Assembly (NCBI GenBank): GCA_021292165.1
Contig: CM037880.1
Span: forward strand, 185,563,970 to 185,627,969
From: Shinisaurus crocodilurus
Taxonomy: Eukaryota > Chordata > Lepidosauria > Squamata > Shinisauridae
DNA: 64,000 nucleotides
Direction: 5' to 3'
A program made the position numbers and the translations under genes. The notes under the pieces are model-generated. The model had not been told where the DNA came from. It searched no databases and worked only from the letters and a program-made list of their open reading frames with translations. Below, one piece after another: positions 8,453 through 49,520 of this stretch (its first letter is position 1; each line of letters opens with the position of its first letter).

Positions 8453-8689
8453 GACTTAACCAATGTCTTTGCAGTAGAAGGGGATAAAAAAAGAATGAGA
8501 AGGTGGCAGTGCACATTGTGTTATAAATGGGTCATTTTTATGAAATGTTTCTATACATTAAAGCTTGACTGGTAGATGTACCTGCATCCTATGGATCTTA
8601 AGGAACATTGCTGCATAAAGTACACACACCAAGTCATGCCTACTCATATCCCTTATGGCAAGATTCGACATTCGACCTATGATTAGAAT

Positions 8690-8832
8690 CTCCCATAGTT
8701 TGTACCCATAGCTATTGCATTCATGTCCTGCTTGCGGGCTTCCCAGAGGCATCTGGTTGGCCACTGTAGGAACAGAATGCTGGACTAGATAGGCCTTTGG
8801 TCTGATCCAGACTGGCTCTTCTTATATTCTGT
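8690..8832 (+). repeat. LINE 3' tail, CR1/L3-like
   Basis: The sequence includes TCATGTCCTGCTTGCGGGCT, GAACAGAATGCTGGACTAGA and TTTGGTCTGATCCAGACTGG, then CTTCTTATATTCT. It is a 5'-truncated copy of the same family as the tail at the left edge. Confidence 0.8.
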
Positions 8833-9495: not shown

Positions 9496-9670
9496 AACTG
9501 GATACGAGAGTGGAGACTTCTCATCTTCTGTCAATGGAGGAAGTTCAAAAAGCAGTGAGGGGAATTCACCTGCACAGTTACCAAAATTCTGTTATGAATG
9601 TGGTGCCAAATATCCAGTTGAATCTGCAAAATTCTGCTGTGAATGCGGCGTCCGAAGAATGGTTTTGTGA
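9496..9670 (+). CDS. ZC2HC1A: ZC2HC1A terminal coding exon with zinc knuckle and stop
   Basis: ZC2HC1A is a little-studied C2HC zinc-finger protein; its biochemical role is not established. The exon completes an Arg codon, then encodes 57 residues and TGA at 9668-9670. The C-terminus reads [16 protein letters not shown], then [15 protein letters not shown]. It has two CxxC knuckles (CYEC and CCEC) 12 residues apart, nearly identical to the mammalian C-terminus. The preceding SSVNGG segment also matches. I chose the acceptor ending GATGAAG at 9495 because it keeps the phase; an alternative AG at 9510 would remove five residues. The reading frame used is not the one with the longest ATG ORF here. 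IL7 lies downstream on the opposite strand, as in mammals. Confidence 0.95.
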
Positions 9671-14779: not shown

Positions 14780-15838
14780 AAGGCATTTATATGTAGTCGC
14801 TATACATTTTTATAGTAGTATTATGTTAGCATTGTAAATGGATCCCAAATTTACTAAGTTTAATCCCTGAGAATGAGATCTTAGTTATAGTTTCAGCATT
14901 ACATTTTCAACAATCAGTTAGCAACTTTTTGCCTTCAAGCAGACCCTTTTGCTCAGCCTCCAATATTCTCCTATAGCTAACACTAGAACAGACTACCACT
15001 AAACATCGTTAAAAACCTAACATTTAGATACATCATTATGGATACTTCAATACTAAATAATCACTGTTGTATAAAATTGCAAGACTTACAACTATAAAAG
15101 CATTTGTTAAATTAAATAAACATTCTAGCTATACAATGCCAATAATATATAAAAATAATGTTTTAATATTTTAAGTTACATGGCTTTACTGCATTACATG
15201 GCTTGCACCCAAGAAGTCAACCCCAATTCCTGAGTATTTCAGTAAGAATCTTTCTGACTGCACATAACAAAGCACTGCTCTCCCTATATTCATAGTCCTC
15301 ACCTGCACTGCCTTTTTGCTGCCATTCTCCAAACTGACAGCCTACTGTTAAACTAGTTTTCAATTCCATTAAGTACAGTATCTGTAAAACTTATTCAGGA
15401 ACCCCTCTTTTTAAAAGATGTTTCAGAACCATTATGTATGTGTTAATAAAAACACATAGATTAAGTAAGCTATGTTCTTTGTAATATAGGTGTTACGATT
15501 TAAAAAATTATTTTAAAGGGCAGATAGATTCAAAGGACTGATGAAGTGCAGATTCCAGTTCTCTGTTCCATTTGTCTGTTCTATGCTTCCACTGGTGTTG
15601 AAAGCCTTCTTGAGATGCTTAGGGTCCAGCTTATATTCTTCCAACTTTTTCCTCTATGTCTCCCTCCCAGGAACAAAATTACAACAGTCTTCTCAGGACT
15701 TTGGCACAGAATATTTGCATAAGCAGAGAGGAGATACTTGCAGTGCATAGTTTTTTGTAGAAAAATGATCTGCTCTGAAAAACCATTCTGCATTGTGTAG
15801 TCCACAAAGTTTCACAATTGTAGTGACCTTTCAAAAAC
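14780..15838 (-). other. IL7: IL7 3' untranslated region (probable)
   Basis: This stretch directly follows the IL7 stop codon on the minus strand. It is AT-rich, and in the minus sense contains several ATTTA words (for example complements of TAAAT near 14836, 15055 and 15113), as expected for the unstable mRNA of a cytokine. No unique polyadenylation signal can be fixed; the left limit is a guess. An 18-nt match to IL7 exon 3a lies at 15191-15208. Confidence 0.45.
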
Positions 15839-15973
15839 TCAAGTGATTAACTGAAACCAACATGATTTGAAGTGTGAAACTATTTTCTTTATGCAACATA
15901 CAGGATCAAACTTTTTGCAGCTGTCCATGCCTTGACAACATCTCACATTTCGAGTGGTGATGCTATTACAGTT
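15839..15973 (-). CDS. IL7: IL7 last coding exon (helix D) with stop
   Basis: The acceptor on the minus strand is TATGTTTTTAATGTAG|AAC. The exon has 44 codons and TGA. Its C-terminal part reads KKFDPVCCIKKIVSHF, then KSCWFQLIT, which aligns with human KKLNDLCFLKRLLQEIKTCW. The Cys in VCC and in KSCW occupy the places of the two helix-D cysteines of IL-7 that make disulfides. The N-terminal part (NCNSITTRNVRCC) has extra cysteines absent from human IL-7 but reminiscent of IL-9. No ATG-started ORF covers this exon. Identification rests on the KSCW/KK motifs, the splice acceptor, phase and gene order. Confidence 0.9.
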   Translation of the reverse strand, partial: NCNSITTRNVRCCQGMDSCKKFDPVCCIKKIVSHFKSCWFQLIT

Positions 15974-16815
15974 CTACATTAAAAACATAAAACAGTTAAG
16001 CTGTGTATACTTCATATTTATGTATACTTCATATTTGTGACAAGAGTGTCAAACCCGTAAACTAGAGATTTTGTAATGGGTGTTTAAGGATACACTGGAT
16101 GCATTTGTAAATCATTGCAAAACAGCAAAAGCCTAAAGACAATCTAATGTATTTTAATGAATTGGCTTTAAAAAAAAGCCAACTTGTTACAGTAGGAAAA
16201 TATCTGCAATGTTTTTTGAGCCAAGAAAATCAGTGTCCATCCTACCAGAAGTATATAATGCAGCTATAGACAAATGGAAATGGGGTGGGGTGGGGTGGAC
16301 TTTTAATTGCCAAAAATGAAAAGAACTCTTTCCCCCTTTTTCATTGGTCAGTTCATACAGTGAACCAGATTGCTTTCTTCGCTTGGCAATCATCCCTTTG
16401 TACTAAGCAATCAGGTAGAACAAATGGGGCCCCACAACAAAATGTTGTCGTGTATCCCTGATGGGTATGTGTTAACTTGCTCTAAGAGTATGTCTTCATG
16501 GGCAATGTTTTTTATTTAAAAAAAAACATTTAAAAGTGCAACCAGTCTGCATGGAACATGAGGCTTTGGATTTGGCAGAAGAAGTCCAACAATATCTGGA
16601 AGACCACAGGTTCCCCACCTGAGTTAGCATCATTTCTGATAGTAAGTAATGGGGTGATCCAAGGGCTGTCTTAAAAAACATCTGTAACCTTGGTTGTTAT
16701 TGTTCATAGTTCCTCTTCAACTCTTTGCGCTGTGCACATATAAAGAGAGACTACAAGGGACAAATAAAAGCAAATGCATGGAAACTGCAACAATTATGCT
16801 CTTTTGCAGACATAC
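15974..16815 (-). other. IL7: IL7 last intron
   Basis: A 0.84-kb GT-AG intron. A 17-nt direct repeat (TGTATACTTCATATTT, twice) sits near 16002-16036, and a GGGGTGGGGT run near 16281. No equivalent of mammalian exon 5 with consensus splice sites was seen; an open stretch at 16187-16393 lacks a donor. Confidence 0.7.
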
Positions 16816-16938
16816 CTTCTTTAGCATTCCCTGTGTCTGATTTGAAACCGTTTCCATGCTCTCCTTTAACTCAGAAGTAGTGTTACATGTCTTAGATATT
16901 TTTTTAAGACACCGTGCCATGCAATTTATGGCTATCTC
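16816..16938 (-). CDS. IL7: IL7 coding exon 4
   Basis: Strong splice sites: acceptor ATATTTCTTTACAG|GAG and donor AAGAAG|GTATGT. Exactly 41 codons, phase 0 to 0: EIAINCMARCLKKISKT, then CNTTSELKESMETVSNQT and QGMLKK. Human exon 4 also starts with Glu in phase 0 and has AARKLR followed after a few residues by an N-glycosylation site (NST); here it is MARCLKK followed by NTT. A second sequon, NQT, is present. The three cysteines (NC, RC, TC) are like the NC..PC pattern of IL-9. The next exon upstream is 3b, 2.4 kb away. Confidence 0.93.
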
Positions 16939-17966: not shown

Positions 17967-18402
17967 TGCTTATAGCTTAATGTGAAAATTATATTATTCA
18001 ACATGTTTTAGCTTTCACATTTAGGGTGAAGTAAAATATAGGAGGGTACTGATGGTCTCCCAAATCATGATCCACCAAATGCAAATCTTTAATATACCAT
18101 ATTAGTTATAAAATCAAAATCAGCAACTCATGAAACTACCTTGCAAACTCTTACATTTTATATTTCTTTTCAAAGAAAGTCTTAACTGCACTTTAGTTCA
18201 ATTCTGACACTGTGGGAGTGTTTTTGGACCTGGCTTGGTTACTCACTGGGGTGCTTTGAGCCTAGATGGCTACAAGCATCTGAAGTTAATAATTCTTATT
18301 GGCAAGTCAGCCAGTGTGGCACATTTTCAGCTGGGACTGACCAATAAGATCACATTATGCCAGTGCTTCACCAATAGCACTCACTCCCAGTTAGTTTCTA
18401 TT

Positions 18403-18646
18403 TTTATTTATTTATTTATTTATTACATTTATACCCCGCCTTTTTTCCTACAAGGAACTCAAGGCGGCTTACATAATCCTCCTCCTCCTCTCCATTTTAT
18501 CCTCACAACAACCCTGTGAGGTAGGTTAGGCTGAGAGGCAGTGACTGGCCCAAAGTCACCCAGTGAGTTTCATGGCTGAGCGGGGACTAGAACCCGGATC
18601 TCCCGAGTCCCAGTCCAACACTCTTACCACTACGCCACACTGGCAT
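18403..18646 (-). repeat. tRNA-headed SINE (main family), - copy
   Basis: Reverse orientation: TTTATTTATT tail first, then CCGCCTTTTTTCCTACAAGG, the core CTCACAACAACCCTGTGAGG, and the tRNA head complement CCAACACTCTTACCACTACG. It lies in the IL7 intron between exons 3b and 4, in the same sense as IL7 transcription. Confidence 0.92.
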
Positions 18647-19174: not shown

Positions 19175-19455
19175 TGCTGTCACTCTGGGCAGAGCATAAA
19201 CCAAGGGAAAGGGAAGGAAGGTCATGTCCCACAGTGGTGATAGCCTTCCCTACTTATGTCTACTTCACAGAAACTATATTAACTCCAGAAAAATCAACAT
19301 TACCTTATCTGAACTGCAGGTAAGTACTGTAGCATTACTCCACTTACATGTACCAGGATTTTGTCCAGTTATATTGACCTATAATAAATTAGAATGTAAG
19401 TAGCAACATTTAAATTGAGATGTTTCTGCATACCTCTTTCCAATGTAATAAACAT
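19175..19455 (-). repeat. IL7: Duplicated IL7 block, copy B (contains exon 3b)
   Basis: Matches 29040-29325. In the 51 bases just before the exon (minus sense) 48 are identical, and in the 29 bases from the donor on 27 are identical. Further out the copies share CTTCCTTCCCTTTcCC and GCAGAAACATCT with small indels. The two copies are in the same orientation. Confidence 0.9.
19304..19378 (-). CDS. IL7: IL7 coding exon 3b (duplicate third exon)
   Basis: Acceptor TTCTAATTTATTATAG|GTC; donor GATAAG|GTAATG; 25 codons, phase 0 to 0: VNITGQNPGTCKWSN, then ATVLTCSSDK. It fits directly between exon 2 and exon 4 in frame. Human exon 3 is also phase 0 to 0 (27 codons), has two cysteines and ends CDANK; this one ends CSSDK. 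The CKWSNATVLTC stretch also resembles the CHCSANVTSCLC region of IL-9. Two potential N-glycosylation sites (NIT, NAT) are present. Its relative at 29168-29242 is equally intact. Which is used, or whether both are, cannot be told from DNA. Confidence 0.82.
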
Positions 19456-20139
19456 AACTGATTCCAGAAATGATTACTCATTTGTAGACCAATGCATGAG
19501 CAGGGAGCGAGGACCTAGCAACTAGCCCTGCCCCCTGGTCTCCATGTATACAATTCCAGGTTATTCTTTATTTCATTTCTATACCACCGAATATCTGAAG
19601 CTCTCGAAGGTTGTACGGAAGTCTTCACAAATACAGCCATGCATGAAGACTGCCTCCATGGACAGGGTGGTTACCTGCTGGACTTACTTTGCCAGCCGGA
19701 CCTCCCCTTGCCCATCACCCACCCCAGGTTCCCCATTGCCAGTCACACATAACTGCGGTTATCTGCAGTTGCACACAAGGGCAGCAAGAATTTTTTTTTA
19801 AAAAAAGATCACAAATATTTGCGAAAAATTAGTGGGAGCAAAAAAATTAAAAAAATACTTGGCAACCACAGGTAGCCCCTCCAAGGTACCACTGGAGTAC
19901 CTTGTGGGGGACTGCTCATAGCTGTCAAAAGGGGGGCCACGAAAGCCCGCTTTACAGCTGGCTTTCACAGTCTGAAGGGGGGGAAATTAAGTGACAAAGA
20001 AGCTGCAGCAGCAAGCCTGAAAGGGCTCACAGCAGGGGGGGGGAGTCTCATTCCTCCCATGGTGTCCCCTGGGATACCCTCAGGAGGACTGCAGGGGAGG
20101 GAGGGGGCACTCTACCCATGATGTGCCTGATCGTCTGTT

Positions 20140-20700
20140 GGGCACATCAGGAGTAAGGACTATGCTCTAAATATGCCTGTGCTACGCAGTGTGGGTTATC
20201 ATGTGGTGCGAACCCACCCATTATTTCCTTCAGTTGCTGGAGGAAATACAATCTGATTTCAACTGGCATGTTGTCAAATTGCCTGCTCTCCTGGTATTCA
20301 AAACTTTGCATGTGCTGCTTCAGGTCACTGGCTGTTGTCCAGCTGCAGACCTGTCTCCCCCAGATCTCAAGTGTCCACATCCCATTTATCTTGGGTACAA
20401 TTTTCCTTGAGTGTAAACATTGTTCCGGTGGGTTTAGTCAGGACACTTCTCTCCTGCTGACATTCTTCTGCTTGATATCAGGTATGAATACACATCTTTC
20501 CAACAATTTTTTCTCTATTTTCAATGGATTTATCAGCTTGCTTTGCATGGCAACCTCATCAGACAGTTCCAGATCAGCTGATATGATTGCCTCATCATGC
20601 ACATGGCTCCTTGCTTTATGCTGTTTAGCATTAGAAAATACTACTGGAGACAACCTCAAGGCTTGAGTTGTCTTTCCTGAATGCATTTAGGAACAAATGC
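20140..20700 (-). other. Unidentified possible coding remnant
   Basis: Two adjacent minus-strand open stretches (20438-20686 and 20147-20380, 82 and 77 codons) in different frames have a protein-like composition, for example LSDEVAMQSKLINPLKIEKK. They could be a decayed transposase. No motif allows a family call, and the opposite strand is also open over 132 codons, so chance is possible. Confidence 0.25.
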
Positions 20701-20959
20701 ACTTTATTCCCAAGGGTTTTGAAGCTGGATAGAGAGGTCTTTTCAACACAGATCACAACCTTCCACTGAATGATATGCATTCAACTCCAACTCCCTTGTG
20801 GAACCCCTTTTCCCTGGCACTTTTATTGTTCCCTCCTACAAACCTATTTGATCAAAGTGTGTCCTATAAAACATCACCTTCTCTTCTTGTCTGGTTTTTA
20901 CTTTTATTTTTTTACCAGGCAACGTCTACCCACATTCTCCACCAATCTGTCAGAATTGT

Positions 20960-21410
20960 ACTAACGGGAATCCGATAGGTGAGTGAAAATCCAATGGATT
21001 TTCACAAATAGGCCCCACGGATTCCAGTGCATTAACCCCGCGCTAGTGCCAACTTGCTGTTGTGCGAGTTGAGCCAGCTTGCGGACTTCTGCTGCGGTTT
21101 CCACATTTTTCTAAACACTCTAAGGAAATTTGCACAAATCACGCTATTTGTGCAAATTAGAAGCTGAAAACCATGCAGTTCTATCACAATTTGCGCAAAG
21201 TGCTCTACAACTATGTAGTTTCCAGCTTCCAATTTGGGCAAATTGCATAAATTTGTGGAAATTGTGCCAATAGCATAATTTGCGTAAATTTCCTTAGCAT
21301 TTTTTTAAAATTTGCAAACCACAGCCCGCGGAACCCCACCCCACCCCGACTTGGCCTGGTTCTGATAATTGGATCAGAAATAGGCAGGAAGGCTGTTGAG
21401 GTCAAATGAG
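20960..21410. repeat. Inverted-repeat-rich repeat, TTTGTGCAAAT family
   Basis: Contains CGAGTTGAGCCAGCTTGCGG and many alternating words of the type ATTTGCACAAATCACG / TATTTGTGCAAATT. The 40860-41690 region has CACGAGTTGAGCCAGGTCGC and the same kind of alternation, so these appear to be two members of one non-coding repeat. Confidence 0.55.
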
Positions 21411-21627
21411 CCGGGCTTCATGTATTTATATAATCTTTTTTTAAAAAAGTTTTGTAAATAGGGTCTTGGATTGGGGCCTCAATTTTATGGGGTTCCATAG
21501 GCTTCTGTATAGATTATTTAGATTATTTTTTCTATCTCCCCAAGTGCTCAGTCTAGTACTCAGTCTAGAAGATACCAACAAAAAATGTTGCAGTTCTCAA
21601 ACTAGGTTTGTGTCTCCAGAAATACAT

Positions 21628-21715
21628 ACCGTATTTTTCGCTCCATAAGACGCACCCCCCCCAAAAAAAATAGGGGGAAATGTCTGTGCGTCTTATGGAG
21701 CGAATGTTGTTTAAA
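21628..21715. mobile_element. Short palindromic MITE (GTATTTTTCGCTCCATAAGACG type)
   Basis: ATTTTTCGCTCCATAAGACG and CGTCTTATGGAGCGAATGTT are inverted repeats about 50 bases apart with a C-run and A-run between. The same motif class, with GTATAAGAC, is at 33565-33740. Confidence 0.75.
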
Positions 21716-21839
21716 AAAATTTTTTCTTTCTTTTTTTTTTTTTACTCCCTTCTTCTGGTCCGGGGGAAGAGCGGAGGGCTCCTGGGCGTGGCGGGGCAAG
21801 CTCCCGCCTCTCAGCTGATTCCCCGCGGAACAGCTGATT

Positions 21840-21866
<27 letters not shown>
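21840..21866. repeat. (AT)n microsatellite
   Basis: About 13 AT units in the IL7 intron between exons 3a and 3b. It is flanked on both sides by CTTCTTCTGGTCCGGGGGAA, a direct repeat about 140 bases apart (21750 and 21881). Confidence 0.9.
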
Positions 21867-21870
<4 letters not shown>

Positions 21871-22424
21871 TATATTACTTCCTTCTTCTGGTCCGGGGGA
21901 AGAGGGAGGGCTCCTGGGCTGCCAGTCAACCAGTTTTACTCTCCTTTAATTCCTAGTCATAGCTGCTGGTTATTTGCTGCTCATTTCGCCTTCTCTATCT
22001 TTGCACAGTACTATAGTGCATTTCCACTTCTCTTATTGCTGCGGAGCCTGCACAGGTAGGATTGCACTATGCATAAAAACCCTTGTTCCAAGATCACACA
22101 TTTTTGTACCATTACAGGAGCTTAAAATGAAACATGAATGCAGTACAGACAAAGTAGGAAATCAGCTGTTGTAAGACAACATCTTACATCTTTGTAATTG
22201 GCTACAGCAGTGATGTTGCTTTTATTTTTAAAACAATTTGCTGGAACCATCTCTTAGAACCGTTGTTGTTGTTTTTTTAAACAAGCAATACCCTCCCAAG
22301 TCACATAGGTTATTACTAATAGATGAGCTTTGCTGCTCCGTAAAAGGCACAGTGCATGCTATTTTATTCTTGTGTAAAATAATTATTTTTTAAAGGGCTA
22401 AAGGCAAGTTCATCAAGGATCAAT

Positions 22425-22600
22425 GACTAAAGGCACACTCCTATAAATGTTTAGACAGAAAAACGGTTTACCATTCCCAGCATAGCTGGCTGGGGAATGC
22501 TGAGAGTTGTAAGACTTTTTTTTTCTGTCTAAGACTACAATCCTATGCAATTTACACAGAAGCACCAATGAGTAAAATGGGACTTCTGCATAAATACATA
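22425..22600. mobile_element. MITE remnant with TGTTTAGACAGAAAAA ends
   Basis: AATGTTTAGACAGAAAAACG ... TTTTTTTCTGTCTAAGACTA enclose CATTCCCAGCATAGCTGGCTGGGGAATGC, itself partly palindromic. A related, better preserved copy is at 55912-56008. Confidence 0.65.
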
Positions 22601-23400
22601 TAGGACTTTTCCAACATGCACAATACAATTAATATTCCCTCAAATTCTAAATAAAATTACGGTACTTGTTAACAGCAATATATGGATATGAGAAATAACA
22701 GATCTGATCAGCCCCATTTTCCAACTCTGACTGAAGTTATTCTAATCCTGGAGCTTTTTCCCCCTCCCAATATGATATAATGTTAGAAATTCTTAGAACC
22801 CCTATTAAAATCTCCAGGATTGCTTTCAATAGTTTCTTTCAGTGATGCTGATTCCTTTAGAGTGGCAGCCCTAGCTACTGTCCCTCTGCAACTTTGTGTA
22901 GACAAGGTCAAGCCTTTAACTCTCTCTCTGAAGCCTCTGTGGGCTTAAATTTGCCTGGAGCCCTGGCTGTGCCTGGCTAATGATCAGGCACAGCAGGGTT
23001 CCCTGGCCATATCTGCCCCCCTCTTCCCTCATTGATCCTCCAGCCGGTATCCCAGGGTACACTGCAGGAGCACTGAGTTCCCCCCCAAAGCTGTCATTTG
23101 CACTAATCCCCCCCACCAGCGCAGGGGATTCCCTCTGGTTTTGCCACTTCTCAAGGTGCTATCGACTTGGAGTAAATTCCAAAACTGAGGGGACAATTGG
23201 GGCTTCCCAGCACCCTAAAAAAAAAACCCAGGGATCCTGCGTGGAAGGGGGGAATTGAGGGGGTGTCCCCCAAAACACCCTTTTTTGCGGGATCTTGGGT
23301 TTATTTGGGGGGGCTTGCAACTCTGGGTTATCCACATATGGGAAAGTGAGGGCAGCCCAGGGGTACATGAGCCCCCCCAAAACCCCAAAGATTATGCTGC

Positions 23401-23597
23401 GAAGGGTGCTTTCCACTCCCCCACAATCTTCTTTTTAAAAAATGTAAAAGAAATAGCAGTGGGCTACAAAGTTCCATTTTGGCATGGACACTGTGTCCAT
23501 TCAGACAAGTGTCCATGCCAAATTGAAACTTTGTAGCCCATTGCTATTTTACATTTTTTAAAAGAAAAAAATGGCGGGAGTGGAAAGCACCCTTTGC
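23401..23597. repeat. Long palindrome, about 91-bp arms
   Basis: The left arm (23401-23492) and right arm (23508-23597) are near-complementary: GAAGGGTGCTTTCCACTCCC against GGGAGTGGAAAGCACCCTTT, and GGCATGGACAC against GTGTCCATGCC, with a 15-nt loop. It lies in an IL7 intron and is non-coding. It may be the core of a larger MITE starting near 23160. Confidence 0.85.
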
Positions 23598-23681
23598 TAG
23601 CCCCTTGGCAAGAGCAGCAGCCCTTGCTCTTTCCAAGGAGCTCTGTGCCTTTTTGGATTCTCAATGGGTTAGCCTGTCATC

Positions 23682-23836
23682 CGGGTTCAGTCAACACGCT
23701 AAACCTACTAGAGTTTTCTTACTGCAAGCCATGGCTTAGCAGGGTGGTTTCTAAGCCATACCACGCAAGGTTCAGACAACACACTAAGCCACTCTGCCAC
23801 TAAACCTACTGAGGTTTAGCGTGTTGTGTGAACCTA
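23682..23836. mobile_element. Inverted-repeat MITE
   Basis: GGGTTCAGTCAACACGCTAA at the left is complementary to TTAGCGTGTTGTGTGAACCT at the right, and AAACCTACTAGAG / CTACTGAGGTTT repeat internally. No coding capacity. Confidence 0.8.
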
Positions 23837-24129
23837 GTCACTGAAAGTGTCAATGAATAGAGGATTATTGGAGGTGGAATCAATCTGGGGAAGGAGAAGA
23901 AGCCTGGAGATAAATGCAATAAGGGAGGGGCAGGCAATAGAAACGAAAGTGAAACAATATGAGCAGAATACCTGACACAGTCTATTTAAAAAAAAGGGGG
24001 GGGGGGTTTAAATAAAAAAAAATCATTTAAACATCAAATTGGGAAAAAAAACACAAATGTTTAACTAAATTTTCAAAAAAATTCAAAAAACCCCATATCC
24101 TTGTTAAATATTGTATCTTTACCGCTTCG

Positions 24130-26300
24130 GGAACGCTGGGGGAAAGTGACCATGTTATACTTGAGTTCTTGATTCTAAGGGGAGCAAAAGCTGAGTGTAG
24201 CCAAACGTGTACCCTGGATTTTAGGAAAGCCAATTTTAACAAACTCAGAACAATGATAAGTAAGGTCCCATGGCAAGCAACTCTAATGAGAAAAGGAGCC
24301 CAGGATGGGTGGAAGTTTTTAAAAAAGGAAATTTTAAAGGCACAATTGCAAACAATTCCCACAAGGAAAAAAGGCAGAGGGCAACAGAAGAAGCCAATGT
24401 GGCTTCACAATAAACTCAAAGATGACCTGAAAACAAAAAAGAACACGTATAGGAAGTGGAAGGAAGGACAGGCTACAAAGGAAGAGTACAGGCAGGTAGC
24501 GCAGAACTGCAGGAATAGTGTCAGGAAGGCTAAAGCTGAGAATGAGCTAAGGTTAGCGAGGGATGCTAAAAACAACAAGAAAGCTTTCTTCAGATACATG
24601 CATAGTAAAAGACAGAGGAAAGAAATGGTGGTTCAACTACGCAATGGGGATGGCAAATTGATAACAGAAGACAAAGAAAAGGCAGAAGTGTTCAATTCCT
24701 ACTTCTGCTCGGTCTTCTCCCAAAAGAGGGTCTATGACCCCCCTGGCAAACCTGAAGTGCAGACTGAAGGGGCAGGATTGCAGCTTGAGATTGATAGGCA
24801 AATGGTCAAGGAGCACCTGATTACTCTGAACGAGTTTAAATCTCCAGGGCCTGACGAGCTGCATCCTAGAGTAATAAAGGAACTGGCAGAAGAACTCTCA
24901 GAACCACTGTCTATTATCTTTGAGAAATCATGGAGGACAGGTGAAGTGCCAGATGACTGGAGGAAGGCAAATGTTGTTCCCATCTTCAAAAAGGGCAAGA
25001 AGGAGGAACCTGGGAACTATAGGCCAGTCAGTCTGACATTAATCCCTGGGAAATTTTTGGAGCAGATTATAAAAAAGTCAGTTTGCAAGCACCTTGAAAA
25101 CAATGCAGTGATTACTAGAAGCCAGCATGGATTTGTCAAGAACAAATCCTGCCAGACTAATATATCTGGACTTCAGCAAAGCTTTCGACAAAGTGCCTCA
25201 TGATATCCTGATTAGCAAGCTAGCTAAAAGTGGGCTAGATGGAACAACTATCAGGTGGATCCACAATTGGCTACAGAATCGGACTCAAAGAGTGCTTATC
25301 AATGGTTCCTTCGCAAACTGGGGAGAGGTAACGAGTGGGGTACCACAGGGCTCGGACCTGGGCCCAGTGCTCTTCAATATTTTTATTAATGACTTGGATG
25401 AGGAGGTACAGGGAATGTTTATCAAATCTGCAGATGACACAGAGTTGGGTGGAACAGCTAATACTCTGGAAGACAGAAACAAAATTCAAAGCGACCTCGA
25501 TAGGCTGGAGCGCTGGGCCGAACAACAGAATGAAATTTAATAGGGATAAATGCCAAGTGCTGCACCTAGGGAAAGGAAACCAATGCACAGTTACAGACAT
25601 TTGGCTCAACAATACTACAAGTGAGAAGGATCTTGGAATTGTGGTGGATCACAAACTGAGTATGAGCCAGCAATGCGATGTGGCTGCAAAGAAGGCAAAT
25701 GCTATTTTGGGCTGCATTAATAGAAGTATAGCTTCCAAATCGCGTGAAGTGATGATTCCCCTTTACTCAGCACTGGTTAGGCCCCATCTTGAGTACTGCG
25801 TCCAGTTCTGGGCACCACACTTTAAGAAGGACGTAGACAAACTGGAGAGGGTTCAGAGGCGGGCAACAAGGATGATAAAGGGACTGGAAACAAGGCCCTA
25901 TGAGGAGAGACTGAAAGAACTGGGCATGTTTAGCCTTCAGAAGAGCAGACTGAGGGGAGATATGATCACACTCTTCCAGTACTTGAAGGGATGTCACACA
26001 GGAGGTCCAGGATCTCTTCTTGATCATCCCAGTTTGCAGGACACGGAATAATGGGCTCAAGTTACAGGAACCTAGATTCCACCTAAACATCAGGAAAAAT
26101 TTCCTGACTGTCAGAGCAATAAGACAATGGAATCAACTACCTAGGGAGGTGGTGGACTCTCCCACTCTGGAGGCATTCAAGGTGCAGCTGGACAGCCATC
26201 TGTCAGGAATACTTTGACCTGGATTCCTGCATTGAGCAGGGGGTTGGACTCGATGGCCTTGTAGGCCCCTTCCAACCCTACTTTTCTATGATTCTATGAC
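24130..26300 (+). mobile_element. CR1 LINE, 5'-truncated, broken reverse transcriptase
   Basis: A 344-codon open stretch (24169-25203) encodes the region between endonuclease and polymerase and the start of the reverse transcriptase (FKSPGPDELHPRVIKELAEE, SQHGFVKNKSCQTN). Then comes an internal deletion of roughly 25 codons at about 25163, where the frame jumps into IYLDFSKAFDKVPHD. Later parts continue through GVPQGSDLGPVLFNIFINDL, SADDTELGG (in place of the usual F/YADD) and LYSALVRPHLEYCVQFW in shifted frames at 25127-25540 and 25335-26051. The 3' end is the standard CR1 end, closing CTATGATTCTATGA. It is inactive. It lies in the IL7 intron between exons 3a and 3b, antisense to IL7. Confidence 0.95.
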
Positions 26301-26339
26301 AATACAGTGTTGTTTTAGTTAAATAAAATAGTTTCAGTG

Positions 26340-26560
26340 TTTGTCTGGAGTTGGGGTCGATTGTCCTAATAGAGTAAGGTAAGAAAATCCTCTGAATATT
26401 CATGATTAAGCTGTTCAACTGGAGATTGTTCACCTTCCAGTGCCTTCACAAATATCTGTTTCAATGAGCTTTGGTAACTCTGTGTAAAATATGTATTGAG
26501 GTTATAGCAAGGAGGAGTGCACTTTTTGGGGCAGAAAAATCACATGATTAAATCGAGTCT
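26340..26560 (-). other. Small unidentified open stretch in intron
   Basis: A 60-odd codon minus-strand stretch with YQSSLKQIFVKALEGEQ is open between stops. No homologue was recognised and no splice pair in a suitable phase for IL7 was found. It may be a transposase scrap. Confidence 0.2.
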
Positions 26561-26585
26561 TTCTGAGTAGTGATTTCAATTGTGA

Positions 26586-26682
26586 TTTGCTTTAAATCAA
26601 ATCCACCCTGGACCAAAGGCAGATAGACCAAAGGCAGCTGCTTTAAATCAAATCCACCCTAGACCAAAGGCAGATAGAAAAC
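26586..26682. repeat. Short tandem duplication within a dispersed repeat
   Basis: Two copies of TGCTTTAAATCAAATCCACC followed by CTGGACCAAAGGCAGATAGA-like sequence stand about 50 bases apart. The TTTAAATCAAATCCACCCT wording is common in amniote dispersed repeats. Confidence 0.75.
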
Positions 26683-27874
26683 ACTCCTCCATTCTAGTCC
26701 TGTGTGGAAGGAACACCTGGACAGGGGCCCCTCTCTCCCTGTTTCATCACGGAGAAATAATGATTTTGAGGCAGCTTAAACTCTTCTGTCAATGTTCTTT
26801 ATCTAAGAAACTCAGGTGACAATTTAAATTATGGCCTTTGTGATCTTGCAGTACTTTCACTTTTCAACACAGGTTACAGACTGTTTTAAGTTAACAATAA
26901 TCAAATTAGCCCTGTGCTGTGCTGAATCTACTATCTGTCCCAGCTGGCCTGATGAAAGAAGCCTTGTAGTGTGTTTTACTGTTCAAGAAGAGTTCAGGTA
27001 TTTGGGACACAAGTTGCACCATCTTGTGGTCAAGCAAACCTGAGGGTTAAAGAGGATGTGTCCTTACATTCTATCCACCATCTGAGGTTGGGTCATCTGT
27101 ATTTATACTCTTGGATAAACAAGTGTCCACTTCTCTGGTATGTTTAGATAATGGTCTAGTAAACAAGTTATCTGATAACCAGAAATACAGATGTCTATCT
27201 TGCTGGATACTGATAAACAAGTTATAATATTCCTAAGTCCATATTTAGCTAACCATCTGGATATGATGGCATTTCAAAGATGTTAAGCTGTCCAGTTTAC
27301 TATACTCAATGCACAATTGGGATTGTTCATCAGATGATCTTAACCTTCTTTGTAAACAAATTATTCTATCATTTCCAGGGGAACGCCAACATGAGGATGT
27401 TTGTCTCCACAAGTCTGTTTTGCATGTTTCAGGTCTGATTAAAAATTATTGGTGGCCCCATGCCAGAGGTGTAGGGTGCTTCCAGACAAGGCTTGTACTA
27501 TGCAAACACCCTGCCTCTTCCATGGAATTTTACAAGAGATCTAGACATTGTCTTCCACTAGTAATCCTCCCATGTTTTCCCAATGCTTCTTACCAGAAAA
27601 AAACCCACCAAGTTAAGGAGGGAATGTCGGAATTGCTGCACAATGCCTTTTAACTGGTAGCACCAGGAGCCCTTCAACTGGAAGTCTTGTTAGACAACAA
27701 GCAATACCCAAGAGCCTCAAACCATAAAATTTTAAGACATTCAGTCTCAGTCTACTGAAAAGTAAGACCCATGTTGGGATCGCAGACTAAGAGTCTTTGG
27801 AGCTTCTAGGCTATTTCCTAGGTCACAACATATTCCCTATAACAGCCCTCCCCACTGTAGCCAAATCCTTAAGT
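26683..27874 (-). other. IL7: IL7 intron sequence, mostly unassigned
   Basis: A MITE-like word (GGGTGCTTCCAGACAAGGCT) occurs near 27476; the same word opens elements near 50108 and 50757. Otherwise nothing recognised. Confidence 0.5.
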
Positions 27875-27879
27875 CAAAT

Positions 27880-28595
27880 TGTGGAGAAAAAGGTGTCAGA
27901 GTTTCCTGCACCACACACACACATACACACCTCCACATGTGTAAAAAAGTATAATCCCAGCTGGGGGCTGGGAAATGCAAAATGTACATAGTTACTCTGA
28001 TGGCTCCTGACTCCGCAGAGTCTCCCATGTCTTTGATGGCCGGTGCCACAGCTATTTGCATGCAAATGCAGCAAAGAGCCACCCCTCCCCTGCCTGGCCC
28101 AGATGAAGTTCATCCTGATTGGCTTAAGACACCTGGGCTACTGAAAGGAGGGGTGGGGGGAAGAATCTATACTGCTGCTGTGGCTTCTGGTTTGCGTTGT
28201 TGTCTGCACGCTTTCGCGGGAGTAGGGCTCTTTTGCTGAGGCAAGCCCTGGGAAGAAGACCAACCCCCAGACAAAGGGAGTGCCTGGGTATTTATATAGT
28301 AAAGAACTAGTTTTGTTGTTTTATAGCTCTACTTGTATGTACCAAAGTGTCTTTCTACCTTTCTCCCTCTTCCCTCATTCCCCACCTTTTACTGTAATCT
28401 GTTTACCTTAAATAAATTTTCCTGGTTTTACCCCACACGGTGTGTGTGGTCTCTCTGTGGTTCAGTGCTAAATCCAGTGTATAGACCAAGGGCAAGGCCC
28501 TGAGAGAATCAAGTCAAGACGGCAGAGCTAAGGCTGGCAGTTTTGCACCTTTGATCTCTGGTCTTGAGTCAAAGACCGGTTAGCAGTCCTTCACA
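27880..28595 (+). mobile_element. Solo LTR of an endogenous retrovirus-like element
   Basis: The element starts TGTGGAG and ends CTTCACA (TGTG...CACA inverted termini) and is flanked by the 5-bp duplication CAAAT (27875-27879 and 28596-28600). Inside, in the right order, are a TATA box (TATTTATATAG near 28290) and a polyadenylation signal AATAAA at 28411-28416, with a GT-rich stretch after it (GGTGTGTGTGGTCTCTCTGT). No internal retroviral genes are next to it, so it is a solo LTR left by recombination. It sits antisense to IL7 in the intron between exons 3a and 3b, about 570 bases from exon 3a. Confidence 0.88.
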
Positions 28596-28699
28596 CAAAT
28601 ATTTAGCCATGCTAAATGAGTACAGCTTCTCCAGGATTAGTACAAAAGAGGCTGGAAAGAGCAAGTGCACATGTCTTGCTCTCTTATAATGCTAGAACT

Positions 28700-29052
28700 G
28701 GGATCATCCAATGAAGCTGAATGGTGGGATATTCAATAAAGATAAACAGAAGTACTTCTTCACACAGCACAAAAACTATGGCATTCAACAAGATGTAGTG
28801 ATGGTCTACATTTTGGGATTAGACAAATTCATGGAGGATAAGGCTATCAGTAGCTAATAGTCACGATGGCTATATATTATTTCCAATAGCAGAGGCAATG
28901 TGTCCTGCGTACCAGCTGCATAAGTAGCAGGGTGCTACAGCACTCATGTCCTATTTGTGGCCTTTTCAGTGACTTGTTGGCCACTGTGTGAACAGAATGC
29001 TGGACTAGATAGGCCTTCAGTCTGATCCAGCATTACTCTTCTTATGTTCTTA
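28700..29052 (+). repeat. LINE 3' end, CR1/L3-like
   Basis: Longest copy of this family here: AGATAAACAGAAGTACTTCT, GGAGGATAAGGCTATCAGTA, GAACAGAATGCTGGACTAGA, closing CTTCTTATGTTCTTATGA. It ends exactly where the duplicated IL7 exon block begins, so it inserted at or near that boundary. Confidence 0.85.
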
Positions 29053-29325
29053 TGACATTCTGAACAGAGCATAGCCTGGGCAAAGGGAAGGAAGGTGGCC
29101 ATGTTCCACACTTGTGCTTACTTCAGAAACTATAGATGTATATTAACTCCAAAAAAAGCAACATTACCTTAGTTGAATTGCAGAAAATTATTCTGGCATT
29201 ACATGGCTTGCACACAGCAACATCTTGTCCAGTTTTTTGCTCCTATAATAAATTAGAATGCAAGTAGCAACATTTTAATTTAGATGTTTCTGCACTTCTC
29301 TTTTCAGTGTGATAAACTCACAATT
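29040..29325 (-). repeat. IL7: Duplicated IL7 block, copy A (contains exon 3a)
   Basis: Counterpart of 19175-19455, same orientation. The splice-site neighbourhoods are about 94% identical to the other copy over 80 intronic bases, apart from an 8-base insertion (CATCTATA in the minus sense) 29 bases after the donor. The left side abuts a LINE tail. Confidence 0.9.
29168..29242 (-). CDS. IL7: IL7 coding exon 3a (duplicate third exon)
   Basis: Acceptor TTCTAATTTATTATAG|GAG; donor ACTAAG|GTAATG; 25 codons, phase 0 to 0: EQKTGQDVAVCKPCN, then ARIIFCNSTK. Like human exon 3 it is symmetric and ends with a cysteine and a short charged tail (CNSTK; human CDANK). It has three cysteines to the two in 3b and one N-glycosylation site (NST). 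Against 3b it keeps TGQ, CK, NA, C, S and K but changes 15 of 25 residues. The two exons could be alternatives or be included together, since either choice keeps the frame. Confidence 0.82.
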
Positions 29326-33739: not shown

Positions 33740-35050
33740 TATATAAATGTGAAAGTTCGTCTGCAGCTGTGCGGGTGCCGGGTGTGTGCAGTTTGTGTGT
33801 GTCGCATAGGTTCCTACACATTTGGATGGATCCGCTCCAAACTTGGCACGCATACTCTCCATCACCCAAGCACAAAGACTGGCGGGTTCAAATCTCCAAA
33901 AAACCCTCGCTGTGCCTGTACGGCCCAAAATAGATGAGAGCCAATGGCGTCACTTGGAATGTTTGCAGGGGCCATTCAGGAGCGGTTATGCAAATCACTC
34001 CAACGGCATTTAGAATGTTCGTATGAACTGCCACGGGCCCAATCAGGAGCGGATATGTAAATCTCTCCTACGTCCAAACAGAATGTTCATATGAACTGCA
34101 GCTGGGGCCTACATGGGGGGGGGAGCTGGGATTTCATTGTTGGGTAGTCCCGGGGGAGGAGGCAAACTGGGATTACATTGTTGTGTAGTCCTGAGGGGGA
34201 GGAGGAGCAGGGATTTCAGTGTGTAGTCCCAGGGTGGGGGGGGAGCAGGGATTTCAGTGTGTGGTCCCGGGGGAGCAGGGATTTCATTGTTGTGTAGTCC
34301 CGGGGGGGTGGGGGAGCAGGGATTTCATTGTGTGGTCCCGGGGGGGGGAGCAGGGATTTCATTGTGTAGTACCGGGGGGTGGGGGACAGGGAATACATTG
34401 TTGTGTAGTCCTGGGGGGGGAGGGAAGCTGGGATTCATTGTGTAGTCCCGGGAGGGGGAGCAGGGATTTCAATGTGCAGTCTGGGGGGCGGACAGAGATT
34501 TGATTGTGTAGTCCCGGGGGGGGGGGAAGCAGGGATTTCATTGTACAGTCCCGGAGGGGGGAGCGGGGAATTCATTGTTGTGTAGTCCCGGGGGGGGGGG
34601 TGAGCTGTGATTTCATTGGTGTGTGGTCCCGCGAGAGCTGGGATTTCACTGTTGTGTAGTCCGGGGGGTAGAGCAGGGATTTCATTGTGCAGCCCTGGGG
34701 GAAAGGGAACAGGGATTACATTGTGTAGGCCGGGGGGAGAGCAGGGTTTTCATTGTGTAGTTCCGGGGGAGCAGGTAGTCCTGGGGGAGCTGGGATTTCA
34801 TTGTGCAGTCCCAGGGGAGCTGGTAGTCCCGGGGGAGCTGGGATTTCATTGTGCAGTCCCAGGGGAGCAGGTAGTCCCGGGGGAGCTGGGATTTGTGTAA
34901 TCCTGGGGCAGCTGGGATTCCATTATGTAGTCCCGGGGGACCTTTCCTATGGAGGGATTCAAAATAGCGGACAGCTACCTTAAGGAATTTCGAACAAATA
35001 GTGCCTATAGGAAAATGACGACCTGTGCAATGTCGGGTAAAAAAAGCTAG
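33740..35050 (+). mobile_element. Probable non-autonomous Helitron
   Basis: The left end TATATAAATGTGAAAGTTCG and the right end TGCAATGTCGGGTAAAAAAA followed by GCTAG match the style of vertebrate Helitrons, which end in CTAG after a short hairpin with a TGCAATG-like loop. There are no terminal inverted repeats or clear target duplication, as expected. The middle is the G-rich minisatellite at 34095-34935. It has no helicase or replication-initiator coding. Confidence 0.55.
34095..34935. repeat. G-rich minisatellite, about 35-45 bp unit
   Basis: About twenty imperfect copies of GGGAGCAGGGATTTCATTG(TTG)TGTAGTCCCGGGGG. Units vary in length mainly by G-run length and presence of TTG; the last four are shorter and contain GGGGAGCTGGTAGTCCC. 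G-runs of 5-12 recur in every unit. The ORFs over it are low-complexity artefacts. Confidence 0.92.
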
Positions 35051-35192: not shown

Positions 35193-35719
35193 TTGGGTAC
35201 TAATTTTTTTTTTAAAAAAAAATAGATTATCATCAGACTATAACTAGATTTGTTATGCAACTACCCCGTGAAGATTTACAGTTGGCTCAGCAGCTGAGAT
35301 ATTTGTGCTTGAGAAGATACTGCAAGTCAATAACATGGAAGTGGAAGAATTTCTCTTCCAAATCAAGCACTACTGAAGCAAATTAACAACAGCAACATTA
35401 TGTACATTTCTGTTGTTGCTTATTATCAGTGGTGGGAGGCAGCATCTTTCATTTCACCTATTAAGTACTTTTCCAACATCTTTCATCTTGCAGCTTCCAC
35501 ATTTTCTTATAACACCACCTTTTCTGATCTAAAGCCCTGTATCTGGTCTGATTTTCCATCACCATCTTACCCTCCATAGCTCTTCATTAAAGAACTAAAG
35601 AGAACATTGCAGTTTCTGACTATGGAAGGAGATTCAAGATGAAGAGCAACCAGGAATGCTAGCTTCTGAGAACGAAGAGTCTCCTCATTATGATCTGGTT
35701 CACAAGACATGACAGCCCA

Positions 35720-36480
35720 CCATGGTCATTCTAGACTCCCAGCTGTCCATGGAGGCTCAGGTGGCAGCTGTGAGCCGGGCAGCGCTGTATCAACTCCATC
35801 TGATACGGCAGCTGCGCCCCTACCTTCCTAATCACCTGCTCCCATCAGTGGTTCATGCCTTGGTCTCCTCTCGCCTAGACTACTGTAATGCGCTCTACGT
35901 GGGGTTACCCTTGAAGACGGTTCGGAAGCTGCAGCTGGTACAGAACGCGGCGGCTTGCCTGGTTAAAGGCAGCCGCCGGCGGGATCACATCACGCCAGTG
36001 ATGAAGGATTTGCACTGGCTACCAGTTGCTTGCCGAGCCGAATTCAAGGTGTTGGTTTTGACCTTTAAAACCCTATACGGCTCTGGTCCAGTTTATCTCA
36101 AGGAGCGTCTCCAGCAACACCAAGTGGGCCGCTCAACAAGATCTGCCACGGATGGCCTTCTCCTTGTCCCTTCAGCCAGAGCAGCTAGACTGGTGGGGAC
36201 GACGAAGAGGTCCTTTTCTGTGGCGGCCCCCGTACTGTGGAACTCTCTCCCGAGTGACCTCCGCCATGCCCCCTCTCTGATGAGCTTCCGTCGCTCATTA
36301 AAAACCTGGTTGTTCAGGCGGGAATATGGGGTGGGTTAAGATTTTAAAATTTTTATATTGTTTTAATGTATTTTATTGTATTTATGTATTTTATTGTGTG
36401 TACATCGCCCAGGGTTGCCGGTTGCCGGCCAGATGGGCGATAAATAAATATTAATAATAAATAATAAATAAATAAATAAA
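35720..36480 (+). mobile_element. L2 LINE, 5'-truncated, C-terminal reverse transcriptase region
   Basis: One open stretch of 205 codons (35722-36339) encodes the end of an L2-type ORF2: SSRLDYCNALYVGLPLKTV, HWLPVACRAEFKVLVLTFKT, then WNSLPSDLRHAPS and a stop. Its 3' end is CGCCCAGGGTTGCCGGTTGC and an AATAAATA tail. It corresponds closely, base by base, to 40087-40830 of the neighbouring L2, suggesting both are fairly young. It starts abruptly within the coding region (GGTCATTCTAGACTCCCAGC). Confidence 0.95.
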
Positions 36481-36639
36481 TATTGTGTCATGTGAACCTG
36501 GCCATTGCCTGTTTAGAGACATTAAGGATCCTCCAGTGGAGATTAGCCCCCTATGACCCGATCTGCACGTGTGCGCACACGCACACCCTTTTAGTACTCG
36601 GTAGAACCAACAAACATCTCAAACTCTGGCTCCTCTATT

Positions 36640-39600
36640 TGAAGTTCCAGGTTAGGAGCTCTACAGAAGATAAGGATGGGGATATTATATAGGTGTGGCT
36701 GGGGTTTTTTAAGAGGCCCTTCTTTTTTGAAGGACCGGGGGTTTTTAGGGGTTGGTTTTAGGGGTGGGTCTCCTGCCTGATTGGCGGAAGCGAGGGGGCA
36801 TGTGCCTCTCCCAGGGAGATGATGATGGAGGGAGTTCTGGGGGGCAAAGCATACCACTGTTGAGCGGCAGACGTTGGCAGAACGCTAGGGGCAGGCCACG
36901 CCGATTAAGGGGGACAAGGGATCGATGCTTAATACCTATCCCTTGTTCCGGGCCTGCCCAGAGCCAAGGGATAACTGGGGGATGTGCGGCTCCTCCCCAC
37001 ACCTTGCGTTTGCTGTTGTGCAATGCCAGGTCCGTTACCCAAAAAACATCTCTCATCCATGACTTGATCCTGGATGAGGGTGCGGACCTGGCATGTATTA
37101 CGGAAACCTGGCTGGACGAGGCCGCTGCTCCAACTCTGGCGGCCTTGTGTCCAGCTGGTTTCTCGTATGCCCAGCAGCCAAGGGTTGGGGGACGGGGAGG
37201 GGGAGTGGCTGTTATCTACCGGGAGTCCTTGGTCCTTACCAGACTCCCTCTCCGGAAGACCAAGTTTATTGAGTGCATGTACTGGAGGTTGGGTCCAAAG
37301 GGCAGTCTGGGGATTCTGCTTGTGTACCGTCCACGCTGCTGCATGACAGACTCCCTGGCCAAGGTGCTGGAGGTGGTCTCTGATGTGCGTGTGTTGTCCC
37401 CCAGGCTATTGGTGCTGGGGGACTTCAACGTGCATTCAGGGCTGCCCTCACGGGGGCACCTCGGGACTTCATGGAGACCATGGCTTCCTGGGAGCTGCAC
37501 CCTGTATTAACTGGACCTACCCATGTAGCCGGTCATGCACTGGACTTGGTTTTTGTTTCTGGAGAGGGGGGAAATGATCTGGAAATTGGGGGTATATCCA
37601 CCACCCCCTTGTCATGGTCAGATCACTATCTGGTGGGGTTGGGTTTCTCGATACCAGAACCCCTCTGCAGGGGTGAGGGACCTATTAGGATGGTCCGCCC
37701 CAGGCGTCTTATGGATCCGGATGGATTCCTGAATGCGCTTGGGGAATAGGAGCACACAAACGGTAGCTCGGTCGAGACCCTGGTGGACGACTGGAATGCT
37801 GCAATAACCAGGGCATTAGACCGAGTTGCCCCGAAGCGCCCTCTTCGCCTGAACAGAGCTCGTGCAGCACCATGGTTCACTCCTTCGCTGCGAGCTCTGA
37901 AACAAGAGGTGAGAAGGCTAGAGCGCCGATGGCGTAATTCCCACTCCGAAGACGATCGAACATGGGTTCGAGCTGCATCTTCAGCCTAACGGGTGGCGGT
38001 GGAGGCAGCAAAAGAGAATTTCTATGCTGTCTCCATTGCGTCTGCGGAGTGCTGCCCCAGGAGGCTGTTCCAAGTGGTCCGGAGTCTGGTCGGTCCAGCC
38101 GCTCCGGACCCAATGGAACAGTCTAAAGCCTCCTCTGAGGCTTTAGCGAAGCACTTCGCAGATCGGATTAGGAGTGGGATATTGTGCGTCAAGGACACAG
38201 GGAGTGAGCGGGAGGAGGCCAATGGCAGACCGGTTTTGTGGGATCGGTTCCAGCTTCTTCCTTCTGATGAAGTGGACAAGGTGCTTTCATCTGTGAGGCC
38301 GACCACCTGCTTGCTTGATCCTTGCCCGTTCTGGCTCATCATGAGCTGTAGGGAGAGACTGGGTGAGGGGATCAAGGCAGTGGTCAGGGATGGGGACTTG
38401 GACTCGAGGACTCGACTCGTGAGTCGGACTGAGTCCCCCCTCTGACTCAACTCGGACTCGAGTCCCAATATTTTTAATGGGACTCGAGACTTGACTCGGG
38501 ACTCGAGACCAAGGACTCTTCAACATCCCTGGGCTGTGCCAGAAGGAGTGGAGAGGAGCGTGATTGCCGGTGAAGAGCACATGGAAGCGAGGTGTGCCGC
38601 TGCTCGGCCACTATGGACGGCTACCAAGAGTGCAGCCCCAACAGTGTGTCAAGATTTATTTTGATTGATGTGTTGCGTACTTGGGAGAGGCAGAAGAAGG
38701 ACATGAGGTTACTCTGTGTGGCTGCTCTGACTGTGTTTCTGGTTCCAGCAAGTTCATCACCAGTGGAGCGGGTGTTCAGTGAGGGTGGAATTGTGATGAG
38801 TGGAATTGTGATCTCACCATTCCAGAATGGGGGCCAAACATTTAGAAAAAATCATGTTCCTCAAATGTCTGGGGTTCCCAGCCTCCTCTGCCTGCCTGGT
38901 CTCTTCTTGACCAGTTCAACAGTTGAACTGTCCAAGACAAAGGCCTCTGCCTGCCTGCTTCGGGGTTCCCTGCCTCCTCTGCCTGCCTGGTTATTTTGGG
39001 TTTTTCTGCCTGGTCTGTTCTTGCCAAAACCAGTTGCAGAGTTTTGAAATAAAAGGGCACACTTGTGCCTAGAACTATGTATTTAAGCCACACATCTGAA
39101 GTAGCCTTATTTTGTTGGGAAAACCCCCCATTGATTTTAATAGGGACTCGTGGAGTCAGCTTTGGGAGTGACTCGTGAGTCACCATTTAGGACCAAGGAC
39201 TCGGACTCGAGTCCAAAGACTCGTGACTCGACTCGTGACTCGAGACCAAGGACTCTTCAACATCCCTGGCGGTGGTGAATGCCTCCCTCGAGGAGGGAGT
39301 GATGCCATCAGCCCTCAAGGAGGCAGTAATAAGACCGCTTCTAAAGAAGCCCTACTTGGATCCCCAGGATCTAAACAACTTTCGCCCAGTCTCCAATTTA
39401 CCATTTCTGGGCAAGGTGATCGAGCGGGTGGTGGGTGCTCAGTTGAAGGCACACTTGGATGAAGCCGATTATTTAGATCCATGCCAGTCGGGCTTCAGGC
39501 CTGGACATGGGACGGAGACGGCCTTGGTGGATGATATGAGGAGGGCTTTGGATAGGGGTGACTGCTCCTTTCTAGTCCTCCTCGATCTCTCAGCGGCTTT

Positions 39601-42560: not shown

Positions 42561-42688
42561 CAGATGACTAATGCTGGGGGATAGAATATTATAATAATCT
42601 TCTCGGATTTCATTCATGCAAACAGATGAAGCATCTGGCACCAGAGCTAGGAACAGTGGCAGAATCCCAAAGATATACCTTAAAAAAG
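42561..42688 (-). CDS. IL7: IL7 coding exon 2 (signal peptide and start of mature protein)
   Basis: Acceptor TTTTGTAATCTAG|CTT; donor CATCTG|GTAGGT; 128 bases, phase 1 to 0. Joined to exon 1 (ATGTTCCATG) it reads MFHAFLRYIFGILPLFLAL, then VPDASSVCMNEIREDYYN and ILSPSISHL. Human IL-7 begins MFHVSFRYIFGLPPLI and continues PVASSDC, so the signal peptide, its cleavage zone (DASS|VC) and the first cysteine line up residue by residue, and YYNILSPSISHL parallels YESVLMVSIDQLL. This is the strongest single proof that the minus-strand gene is IL7. An ORF scan only shows its second half. Confidence 0.97.
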
Positions 42689-48199: not shown

Positions 48200-49520
48200 C
48201 CTTATTCAATGGGTCCTTTCCGGAAAGCTTACGGGAAAATACAGCTCCCCGGGAAGCCGGAAAAGCACATGTAATAAACAAGTCCCGTTCTGGAAGACTT
48301 GCCAGCTGGAAGTTAGCCCCGCAAACTCGGGGAGGATATTCTCGGTCGCGTTTGGCGTCCGGACGCCGCGTTTCCGAAAACTTGGGAGCGGGAAAAGTAA
48401 GTCTGGAAAGCGGGGGGGGGGGGTTTGGCATCTGCCCTCTAGCACTGCTCGCTCCGACCTGCCCTCTTGCCCTGCTCGCTGCAAACTTCCCTATGACTTG
48501 CGTTTGCCCCCGAGATATTCCGGGCATTTCTTCCCAGTGCTGCTGGGAACAAGGCGCTTCTAGTTTCGTTCTGAACAAATAGCTGGGAAAATCCCGCCGT
48601 AAGACTGAGGGGATAAAAGCGAGAGCGAGAGCGCAGAGGCTTGGCACACCTCACACAGCGGCGACGCGAGGGACACTGCCGAGGGCGCGTGCTCGGGAAA
48701 AGCGCAAGGTGGGTGAGCGGCTGGAAAGCTGAGGAGAAGCGACCGGAACAGACGCGCTCGACGAAGGGGGTGGGAGAGAGGGTCTCCTCCGCTCCCTCCG
48801 AGTTCTACGCGCAGTTAAGCGAAAGGACTGGTGAACAGGGCGCTTGCGCATGTTGCGAAAGGCGAAAGCTTAGTCTGCGCGCGCGCAGCCTCTCCGTCTC
48901 CTTACCATGGAACATGGTCCGCGAGGAGGGAGTTTGCCGCTCATGGTGGTGCCAGGGTCGCGCCCATCGTGCTATCGCCTGGAGGCTGCAAATGGCCGGC
49001 TACGCGAGCTTTTTTTCTTTTTCTTTAAAGAAATAATTTAAAAATACAATTTTAAAAGTTGGGCGCCGCTATGCCTTTTTGCAGCCTCGTCTTCTGTGTG
49101 GGCACTTTTCGGGAGCGGAATAGGCAGAGCCGCTGTCGGAGGGAGCCGAACCTGGCTTGGCTTTTCTTCTGCCTAGGAGACTTCCGTTTGGGCCAAATTA
49201 CTTTCACTTTCCGGTAGTGGCCAGCGCCACTAGAAGCGGAGGGAGTCAGTCAGCTAGTCAGTATGTCACCACTCCGGCCTGGCTGGAGCGAAGGCGCGCG
49301 TTCTTCCACCTGTTGAGGAAAGGTCGAAAGACGCCCCCGTGAGAAGCGCGCCAAAGGTGCGCGAACGCCTTTCCGGGTTGCCGCCGCGGTGCTGTGGCTG
49401 GGCGCTCCCCTTGCTCTGCAGCACGCTCTTCAGTACTGCGCCGAGATTCTTCGGCGAGAGGCGTGGACAGCTTGTGGGTCTTCTCCTTGTCAAGACTAAA
49501 TGGCAGAGGAGGTGGGATTG
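48200..49520. promoter_or_regulatory. IL7: CpG island over IL7 exon 1 (presumed promoter)
   Basis: The only long CpG-dense stretch in the window that is not a G-rich repeat; CG occurs every few bases (for example GCGGCGACGCGAGGG, CTGCGCGCGCGCAG). It spans IL7 coding exon 1 at 48906-48915. Transcription start is not defined; sequence at 48920-49500 would be 5'UTR and promoter for IL7. Mammalian IL7 also starts in a GC-rich region. Several ORFs on both strands (for example 49339-49935 +, 48174-48647 -) are typical CpG-island artefacts. Confidence 0.8.
48906..48915 (-). CDS. IL7: IL7 coding exon 1 (start codon)
   Basis: Minus strand: GCGGACC ATGTTCCATG | GTAAGGAG. Ten coding bases, phase 1, followed by a consensus donor. 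Mammalian IL7 also begins ATGTTCCATG and, as I recall, is split at that point. The start has A at -3. It joins exon 2 at 42688 to give MFHAF. Because it is ten bases long no ORF scan could reveal it; the CpG island, donor and frame with exon 2 support it. Confidence 0.93.

Follow-up and report, generated by a model that had tools for sequence, protein, structure and literature searches.

A duplicated third coding exon in the IL7 gene of the lizard Shinisaurus crocodilurus and its probable use in tandem

IL-7 is a compact four-helix cytokine that controls the survival of lymphocytes and the development of T cells. Its gene, IL7, lies on the minus strand of a 64,000-nucleotide stretch of the Shinisaurus crocodilurus genome (assembly GCA_021292165.1, contig CM037880.1, positions 185,563,970 to 185,627,969; hereafter the window), and carries two neighbouring copies of its third coding exon, here called 3A and 3B. 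The reading favoured here, with a probability of roughly 55%, is that an old duplication left two exon 3 copies, both of which were kept and are mostly spliced in tandem into an IL-7 with a longer loop. The mRNA of this species would then include both copies, and the longer loop may alter receptor binding or stability. The coding exons and the blocks duplicated around the third one, the latter found by self-comparison within the window, are as follows.

48906..48915, minus strand: IL7 coding exon 1, ATGTTCCATG, ending in phase 1, donor GTAAGG
42561..42688, minus strand: IL7 exon 2, signal peptide and helix A region, ending in phase 0, donor GTAGGT
29168..29242, minus strand: IL7 exon 3A, 75 nt, EQKTGQDVAVCKPCNARIIFCNSTK, phase 0 to 0, open frame
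19304..19378, minus strand: IL7 exon 3B, 75 nt, VNITGQNPGTCKWSNATVLTCSSDK, phase 0 to 0, open frame
16816..16938, minus strand: IL7 exon 4, 123 nt, phase 0 to 0
15839..15973, minus strand: last IL7 coding exon, stop TGA, similar to the human last exon
29053..29317, minus strand: duplicated block around 3A
19178..19453, minus strand: duplicated block around 3B

A preliminary description of this DNA had proposed two intact, open third exons of 75 nt with phase 0 at both ends, and their coordinates, strand and lengths proved exact, as did the end of exon 2 at 42561 and the start of exon 4 at 16938. The acceptor end TTCTAATTTATTATAG and the donor AAG|GTAATG are common to 3A and 3B, again as first described. 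The introns, from exon 1 onward, measure 6217, 13318, 9789, 2365 and 842 nt, and all are GT-AG. Because exons 3A, 3B and 4 begin and end in phase 0, every combination of 3A and 3B stays open, giving 156 residues with 3A only, 156 with 3B only, 181 with both and 131 with neither.

The two exons are homologous neighbours set in homologous flanking intron, the mark of a tandem exon duplication. The duplicated blocks (about 270 bp) are 73.8% identical, with a BLAST expectation value (E) of 2.3e-40 within the window. Clear similarity is confined to the zone between about -75 and about +115 relative to the exon and gives way to noise farther out, so that the intron homology proposed earlier holds for this zone and not for the rest of the intron. 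Exons 3A and 3B share 49 of 75 nucleotides (65%, 26 positions differing) and 10 of 25 residues, among them two aligned cysteines, and their upstream flanks share 66 of 75 nucleotides; among 2000 random pairs of 75-mers of the locus the mean identity is 25% and the maximum 35/75. No third copy of exon 3 was found in the window by profile search, the next matches having E of at least 0.11. Two leftover short BLAST matches, one of 3A to 15191-15211 (21 bp, E 0.004) and one of 37 bp outside the block (E 0.014), were considered as a third exon 3 or as wider intron homology and judged unconvincing. Against mammalian exon 3 pieces, 41 of whose 43 rows fit the pattern, 3B scores above 3A (mean 6.5 vs 0.7, best 19.5 vs 17.5), which may bear on which of the two is the older form; these cut-outs include part of exon 2.

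The splice context of the two copies is better conserved than the exon itself (93/104 identical, p 1.4e-4), and remains so when the splice consensus is taken out (68/78, p 0.002). In simulations of a neutral copy, splice dinucleotides, frame and both cysteines are all kept in 2.6-3.0% of cases with 26 hits, 13.5-15.2% with 13 and 33-34% with 7. Taken together, splice-context conservation and the simulations favour both copies having been kept for splicing.

The annotated IL-7 of Podarcis muralis (NCBI annotation, P0003) suggests how the copies may be used. Between its exon 2 and exon 4 parts stand first ENQIGQNDGCNRSNTNRVFCNTME and next VNTTGLEVFCNSALK, the borders of the stretches being drawn on the protein, and alignment scores were tested against 20000 shuffles. 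The first stretch scores 39 with window 3A and 34 with 3B, both at the smallest p of the 20000 shuffles, and the second scores 19 with 3A (p 3e-4) and 11 with 3B (p 0.004); the second stretch gave no alignment signal with neighbouring exon sequence (p 0.76 and 0.09). It starts 3B-like, with VN-TG and its sequon, ends 3A-like, with FCNS, and has 15 residues rather than 25 and one cysteine rather than two. As read from the protein sequence, two exon-3-like units thus stand in tandem within one annotated Podarcis protein, and we judge it unlikely that an annotation pipeline would introduce so short an in-frame segment unless transcripts supported it. One event behind the Podarcis and window duplications would be the simplest reading. 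The preliminary description had suggested looking for a second copy in other squamates; the two Podarcis stretches may be such a case, the second of them being a possible orthologue of 3B. Both searches with lizard queries gave Podarcis IL-7 as the sole match; in a further protein search, the best 120 of 220 matches comprise eight unnamed rows and, among the named ones, mammals, Podarcis and a single synthetic construct, and the other 100 may include further reptiles or birds. A structural model of the Podarcis protein suggests four helices and puts the exon 3 region in the predicted AB loop, in agreement with the placement given in the preliminary description.

Since a 3A-like stretch in Podarcis IL-7 is succeeded by a shortened one with a 3B-like start, tandem inclusion is favoured over exclusive exons; of the two outcomes proposed at the outset, exclusive exons or 25 extra residues, the in-frame duplication behind them stands, and the evidence is more in favour of the longer protein than of exclusive choice. 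In the favoured reading, about 270 bp would have been duplicated locally in an ancestral lizard, which would have provided IL7 with another exon 3 and its splice sites; each copy would have stayed a coding exon, and splicing would mostly run 1-2-3A-3B-4-last. The product would be a precursor of 181 residues in which the AB loop gains about 25 residues and with them extra cysteines and N-glycosylation sequons. Minor in-frame isoforms with one copy (156 residues) or no copy (131) are possible because each copy is 75 nt long with phase 0 at both ends. One-copy forms gain plausibility from the tree shrew, where the part of the source available describes in-frame skipping of exon 3 in some IL7 transcripts (PMC4063794). 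It is more doubtful, and put forward tentatively, that the doubled exon 3 is a lizard-wide trait and that the main secreted IL-7 of lizards, remodelled from a cytokine with a single such unit in mammals, has a two-unit AB loop, extra cysteine and glycan sites and changed receptor engagement.

Several points weigh against tandem retention. The divergence of the coding sequence relative to its flanks hinges on the alignment: the exon appears faster at p 0.0012 in the first alignment and 0.043 in the global one, and with 40 or 80 extra bases of flank p becomes 0.79 and 0.60, so a faster-evolving exon was dropped as a claim. The absence of indels is weak evidence, though both exons are 75 nt long. 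The local alignment has seven gap runs downstream, for which the probability of none in 75 columns is 0.009, and it opens two gap columns that compensate each other where the exon begins; the global alignment has only two downstream runs, and the lack of exon indels was likewise dropped as alignment-dependent evidence. Nonsynonymous divergence between 3A and 3B (dN 0.50) exceeds synonymous divergence (dS 0.34), and no purifying selection on amino acids is seen; positive selection is not claimed for the copies. Even cysteine parity holds for the 3A-only form (14) as well as for the two-exon form (16), and the donors of both copies, having no G at +5, may be weak. The Podarcis evidence is an annotated protein record, in which the second stretch is 3B-like only at its start, scores higher with 3A, is about ten residues shorter with one cysteine fewer, and is unlike mammalian exon 3 (mean -8.1, best 2.0); independent duplication, gene conversion or decay could possibly have produced it.

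That a single copy works as exon 3 while its partner is a rare cassette or a decaying exon, with an ordinary main protein of about 156 residues, appears rather unlikely. This length fits that of many mammalian entries (158-159 residues), only 10 of 25 residues are shared between the copies, exon 3 is optional in tree shrew IL7 as far as the available text of that report goes (PMC4063794), and the second Podarcis stretch is shortened. Yet frame, two aligned cysteines, splice sites and splice context are kept in both copies, and the NCBI Podarcis protein holds both stretches. An assembly artefact or allelic duplication would be extremely improbable, given that 26 of 75 exon positions differ, the copies lie 9.8 kb apart and the window contains no N.

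Mutually exclusive use of 3A and 3B, with two IL-7 isoforms that have different AB loops, is clearly improbable as well. It would preserve the usual cytokine size and the two exon 3 cysteines, and tandem duplicated exons are often treated as exclusive pairs in the accessible portion of one study (PMC9741552); a published prediction method names homology, frame and equal length in its title (PMC3228551). A model known here from part of its source holds that competing RNA structures could arise from the duplication itself and should give exclusive splicing (PMC9013439), which also counts against tandem inclusion. In the window, however, double inclusion is in frame and nonsense-mediated decay therefore cannot enforce exclusion, the 9789-nt intron between the copies excludes steric blocking, and both copies have nearly identical GT-AG sites of the same kind. 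Perfect pairings of at least 12 bp with at least six G-C pairs, searched without a chance control, number three for block A and two for block B (longest 14 bp, one such pairing joining block A to 19701-19714); no partner site common to both blocks is found among them. Podarcis, moreover, carries both stretches in one protein.

The locus is the IL7 orthologue, as is evident from the similarity of exon 2 and the last exon, the Podarcis IL-7 match and synteny with ZC2HC1A. Exon 2 matches human IL7 at 46% over 46 residues (tblastn, E 1.6e-5) and the last exon matches the human last exon at E 4.7e-4, and human exon 5 is unmatched in the last intron among the best eight matches per query. With a window query, the database protein match is Podarcis muralis IL-7 (E 3.7e-22, 40% identity). 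The gene is complete and lies tail to tail with ZC2HC1A on the plus strand, which is the mammalian arrangement. The features of this neighbour are:

9512..9667, plus strand: last ZC2HC1A coding exon, matching the human protein at E 5e-22 (71% identity over 52 residues)
713-817, 2318-2434, 7155-7262, 9512-9667, plus strand: ZC2HC1A pieces, at least four exons within 713-9667

Synteny and sequence similarity place the locus as IL7 despite a missing Pfam match: the profile PF01415 gave no match up to E 10 in five constructs (three spliced fragments and two full forms). Podarcis IL-7 has no listed Pfam domain either, which suggests that the profile does not detect these lizard proteins. A PDB sequence search with the partial 3A form returned no IL-7 (best match nociceptin receptor, E 0.063), and with the full 3B form it returned the human IL-7 structure 3di2, weakly (E 0.66).

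Exon 1 joined to exon 2 begins MFHAFLRYIFG, as Podarcis IL-7 does, and residues 1-21, the signal peptide (48906-48915, 42561-42688), are identical in the two species, against 40% identity for the whole proteins. Conservation between these two sequences is much stronger in the signal peptide than in the mature cytokine. Of the 16 cysteines in the two-exon form, 10 lie in exon 4 and the last exon (15839-16938), and by alignment only about three of those 10 correspond to cysteines of human IL-7.

The window also holds repeats. Open frames with reverse-transcriptase-like sequence, which resemble long interspersed elements (LINE-like), occupy 24031-26051 and 35713-40699, and 35724-36482 is 92% identical to 40084-40850. 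A dispersed repeat of about 230 bp occurs in both orientations at 18395-18644, 42203-42430, 44519-44747, 52465-52691 and 63675-63924; the five copies are 90-93% identical and by eye resemble short interspersed elements. Genes resembling tRNA lie at 52374-52449, beside the repeat at 52465-52691, and at 991-1066, of which Rfam reports only the former. Intron 2 contains a G-rich minisatellite (34115-34894) with overlapping periods of 34 to 213 bp.

If true, the favoured reading would offer a natural experiment on how much alteration of the AB loop and disulfides is compatible with signalling, and would caution that gene models and reagents for lizard IL7 may fall short where they follow the mammalian form. 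Exons are known to duplicate in tandem, but in IL7 this appears to be new: as the preliminary description supposed, no report of it in this gene is among the literature matches listed, a scope that leaves subscription papers and bioRxiv outside. The window gene resembles mammalian IL-7 (PF01415; human 3di2) in its ZC2HC1A neighbour, exon 2 signal peptide, cysteine-bearing exon 3 and last exon, where KSCW stands for human KTCW, and differs in having two exon 3 copies, more cysteines and similarity below Pfam detection. With Podarcis IL-7 it shares the first 21 residues, two exon-3-like stretches in a row and 40% identity overall, whereas the Podarcis protein has no cysteine just after the signal peptide. 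As in the tandem duplicated exon substitution events described in the accessible portion of PMC9741552, two homologous neighbouring exons are equal in length and phase; unlike those events, no sign of exclusive choice was found here, and an annotated orthologue carries both. In B7-H3, judging from the part of the source available (PMC3172298), exon duplication likewise gave an immune gene a longer isoform, but there it concerns the Ig domains of a costimulatory molecule and here the loop of a small cytokine.
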